DNA of 64,000 bases from Algibacter lectus (GTDB lineage Bacteria > Bacteroidota > Bacteroidia > Flavobacteriales > Flavobacteriaceae). Numbering within the stretch: the first letter of the stretch is position 1; each line of letters starts with the position of its first letter. Positions 19,156 to 53,158 of this stretch are shown one piece after another. The notes under the pieces were generated by a model. It did not search any database. It was not told where the DNA came from and saw only the letters and a program-made list of their open reading frames with translations. The translations under genes were made by a program, and so were the position numbers. The stretch is taken from the NCBI RefSeq assembly GCF_900112395.1, contig NZ_FOLN01000004.1, positions 248,001-312,000 of the forward strand, given 5' to 3'.

Positions 19156-19168
19156 AATAATAAGAAGC

Positions 19169-19312
19169 TAATCCTGCTTTCCGCTATATCTTTTAACAAA
19201 GCCACTTGTCTATTATTTAAGTTTTATTACTTTCATTAAAAATTTAGTAAAACACAAAGTTTAGAACATTATAACGCTTTGTAAAAAGGATGCCGCTGCA
19301 ATCAGAGCTAAC
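19169..19312 (+). repeat. Dispersed intergenic repeat, copy 2 (degenerate)
   Basis: The left part (GCTTTCCGCTATATC, around 19176-19190) and right part (GGATGCCGCTGCAATC, around 19288-19303) match the two ends of the repeat family, flanking a longer AT-rich centre. CTTTTAACAAAG (about 19190-19201) can pair imperfectly with CTTTGTAAAAAG (19277-19288). The outer GGGCGTTA end is not preserved, so this looks like an eroded copy. It fills most of the hmgA to 19405 gap. Confidence 0.55.
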
Positions 19313-19404
19313 CTAACCGCCAATAAAAAGGCTTAACCTAAAAACACTCAAATCCCCTGTTTGAGCACCTTCTAAACAAGAAGTTTAATTATGGGTAAAT
19401 TATT

Positions 19405-50067: not shown

Positions 50068-51966
50068 ATGAGTGATGCCCTAAAACACGAATGTGGAATA
50101 GCAGTTATTAGACTATTAAAACCGTTAGAATTTTACAAAGAAAAATACGGTAGCGCATTTTATGGCGTAAACAAAATGTATTTAATGATGGAGAAGCAGC
50201 ACAATCGTGGTCAAGACGGTGCTGGTCTTGCAAGTATTAAATTAGATACAAAACCTGGAGAACGTTACATTAGTAGAGTACGTTCTATAGCACAACAACC
50301 TATTCAGGATATTTTTGCACAAATTAACGACCGCGTTAATAAAGAATTCAAAGAGCATCCAGAATATATGGATGATGTGGCTGCGCAAAAAAAGAACATT
50401 CCATACATTGGAGAAGTGTTACTTGGGCACGTACGATATGGAACTTTTGGAAAAAATAGTGTAGAGAGTGTACACCCATTTTTAAGACAAAATAACTGGA
50501 TGCACCGTAACCTTATTATGGCTGGAAACTTTAACATGACAAATGTTAAAGAACTATTTTCAAACTTAATTGAACTAGGGCAACATCCAAAAGAGTATAC
50601 AGACACCATTACTATAATGGAAAAAATTGGTCATTTCCTTGACGATGCGGTTAGTAAAATATACCGTGATTTAAAGAAAGAAGGCTACAACAAACAACAA
50701 GCTTCTCCATTAATAGCCGAACGTTTAAAAGTTGGTAAAATTTTAAAACGCGCTGCAAAAAACTGGGATGGTGGTTATGCTATGGCAGGCTTAATTGGTC
50801 ATGGTGATGCTTTTGTTTTACGCGATCCTGCAGGAATTAGACCAGCATACTATTATAAAGATGACGAAATTGTGGTGGTTGCATCAGAACGTCCGGTAAT
50901 TCAAACTGTTTTCAATGTAAAATTTGAAGATGTTAAAGAATTAGAACCAGGACAAGCTATTATCACTAAAAAATCTGGTGAAGTTAGATTAAAACAAATA
51001 TTAGAACCTTTAGAACGTAAATCTTGTTCATTCGAGCGTATTTACTTCTCAAGAGGAAGTGATGCAGAAATTTACCAAGAGCGTAAAATGCTTGGTAGAT
51101 TACTTATGCCAAAAGTTTTAAAAGCTATCAATAACGATACAAAAAACACGGTATTCTCTTTTATTCCAAACACAGCCGAAACTTCGTTTTTTGGTATGAT
51201 TGAAACTGTAGAAGACTTTATTAACAAAAAGAAAACAGAAGCTATTCTAAACGGACAACGATCAATATCTGCTGAAGATGTTACCGAAATTTTATCGGAA
51301 CGTGCTCGTGTAGAAAAAATAGCTATTAAAGATGTAAAACTGAGAACGTTTATTACAGAAGATAGTAGTCGTGATGATTTAGTTGCACACGTTTACGATG
51401 TTACTTACGGCGTTATTAAACCTACAGATAACTTAGTAATTATTGATGATAGTATTGTAAGAGGTACTACATTGAAGACAAGTATCTTAAAAATGCTTGA
51501 TCGTTTAAATCCTAAAAAGATTATAGTTGTATCATCTGCACCGCAAATTCGTTATCCAGATTGCTACGGAATCGATATGGCAAACTTAGAGAGCTTAGTT
51601 GCTTTTCAAGCAGCTTTAGCACTATTGAAAGAAAACAACATGTATCATATTATTGATGATGTTTACAAAAAATGTATTGAGCAAACTGAATTAAAAGATA
51701 AACATGTACAAAACTTTGTAAAAGAAGTTTACGATCCGTTTACAGACGAGCAAATTTCAGATAAAATTTCAGAATTATTAAGCGATGAAACTATTAAAAC
51801 TGAGGTTAAGGTTATTTTTCAAGGAGTTGATTGCTTACACAAAGCTTGCCCAGAACATTTAGGTGATTGGTATTTTACAGGAAATTATCCAACTAACGGA
51901 GGAAATCGCGTTGTAAATCGTGCTTTCATCAATTTTTATGAAGGCAATAATGAACGTGCATATTAA
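50068..51966 (+). CDS. purF: Amidophosphoribosyltransferase
   Basis: The first committed step of purine synthesis: PRPP plus glutamine to phosphoribosylamine. The 632-residue protein is much longer than E. coli PurF (505), as is usual for the Flavobacteria form. The N-terminal glutamine amidohydrolase has its nucleophile at C9 (KHECGIAVI), so the first eight residues would be removed as a propeptide. RGQDGAGLASI and GHVRYGTFG are glutaminase blocks. The PRPP-binding loop is VIIDDSIVRGTTLK (about 457-470). The extra length lies in insertions and a C-terminal extension (after about 500). No iron-sulfur cysteine set like that of Bacillus PurF was evident. Confidence 0.93.
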   Translation: MSDALKHECGIAVIRLLKPLEFYKEKYGSAFYGVNKMYLMMEKQHNRGQDGAGLASIKLDTKPGERYISRVRSIAQQPIQDIFAQINDRVNKEFKEHPEYMDDVAAQKKNIPYIGEVLLGHVRYGTFGKNSVESVHPFLRQNNWMHRNLIMAGNFNMTNVKELFSNLIELGQHPKEYTDTITIMEKIGHFLDDAVSKIYRDLKKEGYNKQQASPLIAERLKVGKILKRAAKNWDGGYAMAGLIGHGDAFVLRDPAGIRPAYYYKDDEIVVVASERPVIQTVFNVKFEDVKELEPGQAIITKKSGEVRLKQILEPLERKSCSFERIYFSRGSDAEIYQERKMLGRLLMPKVLKAINNDTKNTVFSFIPNTAETSFFGMIETVEDFINKKKTEAILNGQRSISAEDVTEILSERARVEKIAIKDVKLRTFITEDSSRDDLVAHVYDVTYGVIKPTDNLVIIDDSIVRGTTLKTSILKMLDRLNPKKIIVVSSAPQIRYPDCYGIDMANLESLVAFQAALALLKENNMYHIIDDVYKKCIEQTELKDKHVQNFVKEVYDPFTDEQISDKISELLSDETIKTEVKVIFQGVDCLHKACPEHLGDWYFTGNYPTNGGNRVVNRAFINFYEGNNERAY

Positions 51967-52001: not shown

Positions 52002-52038
52002 AAAAATGTATTTCATCTTAAAAAAATGTATTTCATCT
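52002..52038 (+). repeat. 17-bp direct repeat
   Basis: AAAAATGTATTTCATCT occurs at 52002-52018 and again at 52022-52038, just upstream of the first small RNA candidate. It may be a binding site pair or a chance short duplication. Confidence 0.6.
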
Positions 52039-52068
52039 AAAATATAACAACTTTAAAGTAAATACACA

Positions 52069-52076
52069 TAAATTAG
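52069..52076 (+). promoter_or_regulatory. -7 element of small RNA candidate 1
   Basis: TAAATTAG differs from TAnnTTTG by one base and sits at the same place, relative to the conserved RNA sequence, as the perfect element of copy 2. Confidence 0.5.
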
Positions 52077-52153
52077 TCTCACCATAACATAAGTAGGTTA
52101 AGTTCATGGTAGATTTGGGGCAAAAAAAGGTGAACTTCTGTTCGCCTTTTTTT
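52076..52153 (+). ncRNA. Probable small RNA gene, copy 1 of a tandem pair
   Basis: 51 bases from 52076 to 52126 are identical to 52284-52334. Two hairpins are predicted by eye. The 5' one pairs ACCAT-AAC (52081-52088) with GTT-C-ATGGT (52102-52110, one bulged C) around a loop containing AAGTAGGTTAA. The 3' one, AGGTGAAC (52128-52135) with GTTCGCCT (52140-52147), runs into a T-tract as a terminator; it has one G-U wobble where copy 2 has a Watson-Crick pair, so the stem is maintained. A -7-like element lies directly upstream. The transcript would be about 70 nt. A short ATG frame (MVDLGQ) exists but differs in frame between the copies, so it is not conserved coding. Confidence 0.65.
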
Positions 52154-52276
52154 ATGCGCATTATTTTCATTTTTCTTTATTAAACAGCAATTAAACCCCA
52201 CAAATAATCAAGACTCCGCTTAAACCAAGATATAAGTCGTTTAACTAAAAAATTTTAACAAACTGACTAACAAACA

Positions 52277-52284
52277 TATATTTG
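52277..52284 (+). promoter_or_regulatory. -7 element of small RNA candidate 2
   Basis: TATATTTG matches TAnnTTTG exactly and ends at the first base of the conserved 51-base block. Confidence 0.6.
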
Positions 52285-52358
52285 TCTCACCATAACATAA
52301 GTAGGTTAAGTTCATGGTAGATTTGGGGCAAAAAGGTGAACATCTGTTCACCTTTTTC
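52284..52358 (+). ncRNA. Probable small RNA gene, copy 2 of a tandem pair
   Basis: Second copy of the element at 52076, 208 nt downstream in the same orientation. The first 51 bases are identical, and the 5' hairpin is therefore the same. The terminator stem AGGTGAAC (52334-52341) with GTTCACCT (52346-52353) is fully Watson-Crick and ends in TTTT. The flanking sequences of the two copies are unrelated, which shows that the conserved unit is the transcript itself. It has a perfect -7 element. Function unknown; possible roles are a regulatory RNA acting on nearby purF or sodA or on distant mRNAs. Confidence 0.68.
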
Positions 52359-52493
52359 ATTTTATAACATTTCGTATTTCCTTAAACAGCTTTTCTTAAT
52401 TAAGCCTCTCAATAATTCTCATTCATTCACCATAATTAAACCACGTGATATCGTTATCGACATCAGTGCCTAATTAACTTTATTTATATAAAT

Positions 52494-52528
52494 AAAAAAG
52501 CCGTTTCTGCTAAACAGAAACGGCTTTT
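52494..52528 (-). terminator. Terminator after sodA (bidirectional form)
   Basis: AAAAGCCGTTTCTG (52496-52509) pairs with CAGAAACGGCTTTT (52515-52528) around a 5-nt loop, with the T-run on the minus-strand side continuing to 52494. Confidence 0.9.
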
Positions 52529-52549
52529 AAAATATTTAATGTTGTCTAC

Positions 52550-53158
52550 TTACTTCGCTTCAGCATAACGTTTTTCAACTTCATTCCAGTTAATTACACT
52601 AAAAAATGCTTTAATGTAATCTGGACGACGGTTTTGGTAGTTTAAGTAATATGCGTGTTCCCAAACATCTAAACCTAAAATTGGTGTTCCTCCACAAGTT
52701 ACACCTGGCATTAATGGGTTGTCTTGGTTTGGAGTAGAACAAATTTCTACTTTACCACCTTTATGTACACATAACCATGCCCATCCAGATCCAAAACGAG
52801 TTGCTGCTGCTTTAGCAAAAGCATCTTTAAAATCGTCTACAGATCCGTAAGCTGCCTCAATAGCATCTTTTAACTCTCCAGATAAATATCCTTTTCCTTC
52901 TGGGTTCATTACGCTCCAAAATAAAGAGTGATTAAAAAATCCTCCTCCATTATTTCTAACAGCGCCATTATCCATATCTAAATTTGCAAGAATATCCTCA
53001 ATAGATTTCCCTTCTAAATTGGTTCCAGCAATAGCGTTATTCAAATTGTTTGTATATCCTTGGTGGTGCTTTGTATGGTGTATTTCCATAGTACGTGCAT
53101 CCATATGTGGTTCTAAAGCGTCGTAAGCGTACCCTAATTCTGGTAATTCAAAAGCCAT
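52550..53158 (-). CDS. sodA: Superoxide dismutase (Fe/Mn family, probably Mn type)
   Basis: Disproportionates superoxide to oxygen and hydrogen peroxide in the cytoplasm. 202 residues; metal ligands H27 ([12 protein letters not shown]), H77 (FFNHSLFW), D164 and H168 ([15 protein letters not shown]). The GGG before FFNHS and the NQD in [11 protein letters not shown] are typical of the Mn-selective or cambialistic form rather than of FeSOD. It is monocistronic with its own terminator; a minus-strand TAAATTTG element (53203-53196) about 37 nt upstream is a likely promoter. Confidence 0.96.

Follow-up and report, generated by a model that had tools for sequence, protein, structure and literature searches.

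A tandem pair of apparently uncatalogued small RNAs between purF and sodA of Algibacter lectus, most likely activated by a LytTR-type regulator

The region between purF and sodA in Algibacter lectus carries two units that share an identical block of sequence, which raises the question of what these units encode, what switches them on and what they act on. In the 64,000-nt stretch of DNA analysed here (the window), they lie downstream of purF (amidophosphoribosyltransferase; 50068-51966, plus strand; best NCBIfam match purF, under its cut-off) and upstream of the convergent sodA (Fe/Mn superoxide dismutase; 52550-53158, minus strand), both of which are conserved neighbours. A first-pass annotation, made from the sequence of the window, had proposed a tandem pair of undescribed small RNA (sRNA) genes at this site. 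Here, we report a comparative analysis of the two units and their relatives, and find that they most likely represent an apparently uncatalogued, deeply conserved sRNA family that is activated by a LytTR-type regulator.

Two units with promoters and terminators

Both units, of about 71-75 nt, lie on the plus strand. Copy 1, the purF-proximal one, occupies 52081-52155, with its start placed at about A52081 and its end at the T-run of the terminator, and copy 2 occupies 52289-52359. The 51-base identity previously described for the pair is located at 52076-52126 in copy 1 and at 52284-52334 in copy 2. In front of each unit lies a -7-type element, as the first-pass annotation had it: TAAATTAG at 52069-52076 and TATATTTG at 52277-52284 (both plus strand), the latter a perfect match to the consensus TAnnTTTG, which is given in the accessible text of PMC7366714. 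Each unit ends in an intrinsic terminator (52122-52153 and 52330-52357, plus strand), and the terminator stems, also as described before, differ in sequence yet remain paired, with U-G in copy 1 at a position that is U-A in copy 2. One detail needs correction: the -7 element had been said to end at the first conserved base, which holds between the two copies but not across the family, where conservation begins at ACCAT (52081), about 5 nt past the element. The TCTC that follows the element is common to both copies and variable among relatives. Because conservation begins there, we put the RNA start at 52081, and ACCAT is likely to be the start region of the RNA.

Upstream of both promoters are 20-bp direct repeats, absent from the earlier description: two 20-bp units that are 95% alike at copy 1 (52002-52041, plus strand), and the half-sites TTAAACCAA and GTCGTTTAACTAA at copy 2 (52216-52251, plus strand), which score 34.6 bits with the family matrix. 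Within the RNA, the loop region of copy 1 (CATAAGTAGGTTAAG; 52088-52102, plus strand), with its counterpart in copy 2 (52296-52310, plus strand), is the proposed seed. The 5′ loop AAGTAGGTTAA is, as had been noted, identical in both copies, but part of it can form an inner 3-bp helix, one pair of which is lost in 7 of 21 distinct rows of the family alignment. The predicted folds of copies 1 and 2 beat 200 of 200 dinucleotide shuffles (z = -4.5 and -3.9), and this stability owes much to the terminator. The 4.8-Mb genome of A. lectus yielded just these two full copies, and both belong to the covariance model R1 described below (96.1 bits for copy 1 and 89.8 bits for copy 2).

Two other elements of the window were recorded. 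A terminator-like hairpin at 52495-52529, between the sRNAs and sodA, is probably the sodA terminator, and a Flavo-1 RNA (RF01705) lies at 19166-19313 on the minus strand, with 53.6 bits against a threshold of 42.

Conservation, fold and coding potential

The family-wide comparison drew on 341 copies and 177 loci, which came mostly from an exact 28-mer scan together with overlapping collections and are consequently partly redundant; the 341 rows were picked by core similarity (at most 2 changes in a 16-mer), and the searches with model R1 are less biased. In all 341 of these rows AGTAGGTTAAG is invariant, and ATGGT and most of ATTTGGGG are nearly so, with a one-base indel allowed. The contrast between a conserved block and unrelated flanks, first seen in the two copies, extends to the relatives, in which the block is kept across the family together with promoter and terminator.

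Structural constraint on the 5′ hairpin is not supported. In the terminator, the stem sequence varies among relatives and the pairing is kept (judged by eye), but in the 5′ hairpin 0 of 11 pairs have changed on both sides, as counted over 21 of the 22 unique cores. The outer stem ACCAT/ATGGT is largely kept. With no two-sided changes, and with an inner pair missing from a third of the distinct rows (7/21), we regard the 5′ hairpin as plausible only, short of proof.

The product is best read as RNA, because the frame varies and all three frames contain stops in the core: the frame after the common ATG yields 109 different peptides in 298 extracted units (each cut at the unit end). These counts bear out the previous assertion that RNA rather than peptide is maintained, and a short-peptide gene was rejected on them. 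Each unit has, at the sequence level, the two features by which a bacterial intergenic sRNA is recognized, its own promoter and an intrinsic terminator. With a block conserved across the family, a promoter and a terminator, and no Rfam family at threshold, the proposed tandem pair of undescribed sRNA genes is upheld, and the units would almost certainly be real RNA genes.

Synteny, arrays and distribution

The purF-sodA site is the rule, with exceptions. Upstream, purF runs in the same direction at 163 of 177 scored loci, and downstream, sodA faces the array at 144 of 177 (partly redundant loci in both counts); 6 of the 14 loci without purF and 9 of the 33 without sodA are too short to judge. 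Arrays of at least two copies are present in 123 of 179 locus-strands, with a maximum of six, and the spacing between copies is usually about 180-300 bp. At the stem bulge, two-copy loci have C in the first and T in the second copy in 59 cases, C in both in 32 and T in both in 8, and because of this C-then-T order the array copies appear old and distinct.

Extra copies away from the purF-sodA site occur at three loci (L045, L154 and L156), where the upstream box is weak (10.8, 1.3 and 10.0 bits, against a training median of 30). The one at L156 (6350-6520; Jejuia sp. UBA6058, DIYI01000012.1), which has a weak box only, is surrounded by genes that look mobile-element-like by eye.

A mobile repeat found at many unrelated sites, without promoter or terminator, was the case that the first-pass annotation had set against its own proposal. 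The loci present a different picture: purF and sodA accompany the array at the frequencies given above, and promoter and terminator are kept. An exact-pattern scan of viral contigs and a BLAST search of phage and plasmid collections each gave 0 matches. On the synteny, the two copies in the genome of A. lectus and these null searches, a mobile repeat was rejected.

A DNA search with one 73-nt copy as query matched 5 of 5 genus genomes; at family level it matched 121 of 149 genomes, or 107 of 125 if assemblies of good quality alone are counted. Model R1 is a covariance model of 20 sequences; the first alignment, A1, had 22, and for A2, the alignment of 20 behind R1, two rows with longer terminator loops were left out and four ends were re-cut. 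The covariance-model search across Flavobacteriaceae that had been suggested as a check recovers the RNA in most family members: 32 of 246 genomes match in an order sample, all 32 within the 40 listed Flavobacteriaceae, and 23 of 247 in a phylum sample that overlaps the first, all 23 within 27 Flavobacteriaceae. R1 gave 0 matches among the other 206 genomes of the order sample and 220 of the phylum sample, which were counted as outside the family because family members head the listing, most of them having no displayed name. As far as sampled, the sRNA family is confined to Flavobacteriaceae. The exact 28-mer scan hit at least 119 stretches from named species, in genera that include Winogradskyella, Formosa, Lacinutrix, Algibacter, Tamlana, Salegentibacter, Christiangramia and Cellulophaga. 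A CATTAGTAGG variant is frequent in a genus coded g128, which is probably Flavobacterium, since so many of the sampled genomes fall in it.

A LytTR-type direct repeat upstream of the promoter

What might control the units is suggested by the direct repeats. Of 211 non-redundant promoters (264 of 266 promoters were used, of which 211 remained after rows at least 80% alike had been dropped), 187 have their best half-site (about GCRTTTATCTAA) starting 60-62 bases upstream of the CCAT core. Across these 187 promoters, the column self-correlation reaches r = 0.79 at a lag of 20 and is at most 0.25 at the other 23 lags. LytTR sites consist, according to the accessible sections of PMC4847170, of two repeats of 9-11 nt separated by spacers of 11-13 nt, and the sRNA boxes, with their 20-bp period, have this layout. 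A strict two-half-site pattern matched 4 times in the whole A. lectus genome, 2 of the matches being the sRNA promoters, against 1 match for the reversed control. In G050, which has one sRNA copy in the locus, the promoter contains a perfect repeat of TGCATTTCATCTAA at 20 bp. The site of YpdB in Escherichia coli is a direct repeat of GGCATTTCAT, as far as the same partial source gives it (PMC4847170), and the sRNA boxes read TGCATTTCAT in many copies at the 20-bp period; orthology to YpdB is not claimed, and the likeness of the half-sites may be chance. Judging from these site features, the sRNA is quite probably under LytTR-type control.

Box strength varies within the family. In G005, G036, G046, G250, G313 and G347, the box has diverged or is missing in many copies, whose scores fall far short of the 30-bit training median. 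At L189, L190, L191, L192 and L195, the array closes with a copy (ATTTGGGACGAAAAGG) whose promoter, CAATACCAGTAATTTAG or a near variant of it, is well conserved and differs from that of the other copies. By score, this copy lacks a LytTR-type box, so long arrays may include one copy that is controlled differently. Weaker sites for the family matrix are present in 1.51 Mb of the A. lectus genome, two of them upstream of paralogous TPR proteins. These are two tandem genes for 688-aa proteins (G000:C23, about 119760-124330, minus strand), with upstream boxes of 22.1 and 21.0 bits, and they are possible further regulon members.

A candidate regulator between priA and rpsF

The A. lectus genome has 16 LytTR domain matches, and co-occurrence with the RNA was used to choose among them. 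The sample comprised seven small genomes with the RNA and seven without, chosen by us, few, related and partly incomplete; absence rested on the DNA search for five genomes and on model R1 for G135 and G342, and three were only 90-93% complete. LytTR matches in the RNA-bearing genomes number one in G096, G050 and G141, two in G047 and G103, three in G024 and eight in G064; in the RNA-lacking ones there are two in G027, five in G342 and seven in G135, against none in G068, G056, G008 and G039. Each of the seven RNA-bearing genomes encodes one LytTR protein whose best A. lectus match is L176. A tree built from 43 of the 48 LytTR proteins groups these seven with L176 in one clade of eight (support 100/98), of which no member was found in the seven RNA-lacking genomes by tree, BLAST or neighbourhood. 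The L176-type clade is present in 7/7 RNA-bearing versus 0/7 RNA-lacking genomes (one-sided exact p = 1/3432, calculated by hand). The tree omitted L389, L390 and L392, from RNA-bearing genomes, and L406 and L409, from RNA-lacking ones, as outside the length limits. By BLAST, the best match of L409 is another A. lectus LytTR protein; L406 (G342; 106 aa, LytTR domain only) matches L176 best, weakly, and has a different neighbourhood.

The L176 gene (G000:C10:87423-88115, minus strand; locus G000:C10:85932-89192) lies outside the window, between priA and rpsF. The clade (L176, L395, L383, L386, L385, L388, L382 and L381) adjoins priA in 8/8 cases and rpsF-rpsR in 7/8, the far side in G096 being another gene; neighbours were named with NCBIfam for L176 and by eye for the rest. 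The regulator looks orphan, because no histidine kinase gene was seen, by eye, beside the clade genes. At the aligned position that we take to be the usual phospho-accepting Asp, four of the eight sequences have another residue (Glu in G050; Ser in G096, G141 and G024), and some clade members, given these replacements, may not be phosphorylated. The nearest NCBIfam model for L176 is BtsR, under its cut-off. On co-occurrence and gene neighbourhood, the priA-side protein is, on balance, likely to be the regulator of the sRNA.

There was no sign that LytTR genes are autoregulated via the same box: among the 16 A. lectus LytTR loci, the sole site above 8 bits is at L176 (10.7 bits). Separately, in G142, a LytTR gene of the sister type (L170; 81% identity; L025:2346-3050) is found upstream of the two sRNAs, on the usual purF side.

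Candidate targets

We next consider what the RNA might pair with. Core duplex energies over 1141 start regions (31% of the A. lectus genome) revealed no clear target. The core has a lower mean energy at start regions (-14.0) than 24 of 24 shuffled RNAs, but the same holds within genes (6 of 6), and its best duplexes are of ordinary energy. No word stood out in a scan for antisense word enrichment, and a comparison with 0.8 Mb of G127, covering 120 reciprocal-best ortholog pairs, yielded no conserved target. In all 5 genus genomes scanned, AAATCTACCATGAA (one mismatch allowed) matched less often than its reversed control.

The start regions of the LytTR clade (-45 to +25; 8 genes) have a mean percentile of 0.12 relative to 600 genes (shuffled-target z; rank p = 2.5e-5). 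By raw energy their mean percentile is 0.161, lower than with 80 of 80 shuffled RNAs, and these regions pair fairly well even with the shuffled RNAs (mean 0.345). Control start regions are unbiased, at 0.526 for rpsF (7 genes) and 0.551 for other LytTR genes (35 genes). The loop is the centre of the signal: a 6-mer complementary to AAGUAGGUUAAG is found in 6/8 clade genes versus 190/1778 others, and an anti-loop 7-mer in 3/8 versus 40 others. Three further 12-nt segments of the RNA, which overlap, reach 4-5 of the 8 clade genes as well. Target prediction for the loop had been put forward with the first description of the units; the start regions of the LytTR clade are more complementary to the RNA than expected, and the genome-wide scans gave nothing firm. 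Base-pairing at mRNA start regions is marginally favoured. We would hold feedback on the mRNA of the LytTR regulator at about one chance in three, because the idea arose after a single match in G047, the eight rows are relatives, the p-values are nominal and the pairing sites of the clade genes differ in place.

Comparison with known RNAs

Among the 4227 families of Rfam 15, none reaches its gathering score at the two units, in agreement with the view that they match no named family, and the sole match in the window is the Flavo-1 RNA elsewhere; Flavo-1 (RF01705) is also a flavobacterial motif. The core strings were not printed in the literature searched and no description was found among the papers listed, although the RNA could be numbered in supplementary sRNA tables. 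Partial views of two sources leave specific candidates: the RNA could be Rfp18 or another of the Rfp1-89 RNAs listed in Flavobacterium psychrophilum (PMC9723704), or one of the candidate ncRNAs of F. columnare (PMC5395568). Rfp18 is likewise a conserved flavobacterial sRNA, studied by deletion, and is reported, in the accessible part of PMC9723704, to pair through its third stem-loop, whereas the present unit, compared by description, has two hairpins.

FopS/GibS (RF04319), as described in the accessible parts of PMC11697453 and PMC7366714, resembles the present RNA in being a short, multicopy sRNA of Bacteroidota with an intrinsic terminator and proposed pairing at start regions. It differs in the order of the conserved words and in genomic arrangement, with 14 paralogous sRNAs in Bacteroides thetaiotaomicron, whereas the present sRNAs form a tandem array at a single syntenic locus. 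The accessible text of PMC11697453 does not mention LytTR.

A proposed circuit and its alternatives

The reading that we favour as a whole, at a probability of roughly 0.58, is that of a LytTR-activated, base-pairing sRNA family that is not in Rfam. The conservation, the promoter, the terminator, the repeat and the synteny on which it draws are evident in the sequences themselves, as is the co-occurrence in a small sample. Each unit would be an independent gene for a trans-acting sRNA of about 71-75 nt, transcribed from a start about 5 nt past a sigma-ABfr-type -7 element. A LytTR-type response regulator, for which the orphan between priA and rpsF is the best candidate, would bind a pair of direct half-sites, spaced 20 bp apart and reaching to about 40 bp before the start, and activate transcription. 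The RNA would expose the invariant loop AAGUAGGUUAAG and a single-stranded GAUUUGGGGC stretch, end in its intrinsic terminator and pair with translation initiation regions, thereby controlling mRNAs; the regulator's own mRNA would be one candidate target, and pairing with it would complete a negative feedback loop. The most specific version, a family-wide, dosage-tuned module in which the orphan priA-rpsF LytTR protein is dedicated to the purF-sodA array and the sRNAs repress its mRNA through the loop, is doubtful. Circuits in which a response regulator drives one or more RNAs, which may act back, are represented by RNAIII under AgrA and Qrr under LuxO. Those belong to other phyla, whereas here an orphan LytTR gene sits in a ribosomal-protein neighbourhood.

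The link to the priA-side protein has an alternative reading, in which the sRNA is real, the repeat is read by a different LytTR protein or by a non-LytTR factor, and the priA-rpsF LytTR gene merely co-travels through genome reduction. There is room for this in a genome with 16 LytTR domains, a sister-clade gene of L170 type (81%) lies just upstream of the sRNAs in G142 (L025), and four of the seven sRNA-lacking genomes are small and have no LytTR match, so that reduction could have lost both partners. However, G050, G096 and G141 have the sRNA with one LytTR match, which belongs to the priA-side clade, and G135 and G342 have seven and five LytTR matches, none in the clade, and no sRNA match; we consider this reading somewhat unlikely. 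The mode of action could also differ: the RNA may bind a protein, as a sponge or 6S-like decoy, with arrays for dosage and base-pairing minor, a reading favoured by the near-invariance of the loop and the ATTTGGGG stretch across the family, the lack of clear mRNA targets and arrays of up to 6 copies. Complementarity to the LytTR start region and a 5′ part without a covarying fold speak against a decoy, which is unlikely.

Kinship with FopS/GibS would give the RNA another task, as a distant member or analogue that silences mRNAs of SusC-like or other surface proteins through UUCAUGGUA..AGAUUU at the start codon, with an RRM-type RNA-binding protein. Membership was considered on account of two common 7-nt words, UUCAUGG and UAGAUUU. 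The RF04319 model does align to the units, at 20.6 and 21.0 bits, with UUCAUGGU---AGAUUU identical; the accessible text of PMC11697453 has FopS blocking the start regions of susC-type mRNAs and places the matching part in its start-region seed; and both RNAs are multicopy, short and terminator-ended. Against this, 21 bits compare with a gathering score of 56 (E = 0.12 to 1.1), on which membership was rejected; FopS has 0 matches in the A. lectus genome (positive control, Bacteroides ihuae) and occurs in 5 of 149 genomes of the class, all 5 outside Flavobacteriaceae. The shared words show no start-codon target enrichment, TACCATGAA was seen at 2 start codons versus 2.25 expected, and no convincing start-codon target appeared in the genus, which leaves such kinship quite improbable. 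That the units are DNA-level elements or a short-peptide gene is scarcely credible: all 341 rows have the ATG of ATGGT, but the 298 units give 109 peptides, the core has stops in all three frames, and promoter and terminator frame each unit.

Under the favoured reading of a LytTR-activated, base-pairing sRNA, an anonymous intergenic repeat is replaced by a testable circuit, with a candidate regulator gene, a binding site, an RNA and a first candidate target. The sRNA probably has a basic function, since its sequence hardly varies across the family and it mostly occupies a single site. Flavobacteriaceae are abundant and, in our judgement, a regulator or target is known for few of their sRNAs; model R1 could be used to annotate this sRNA in many genomes. 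If true, the module would be a dosage-tuned feedback circuit in a phylum whose sRNA networks are barely mapped.
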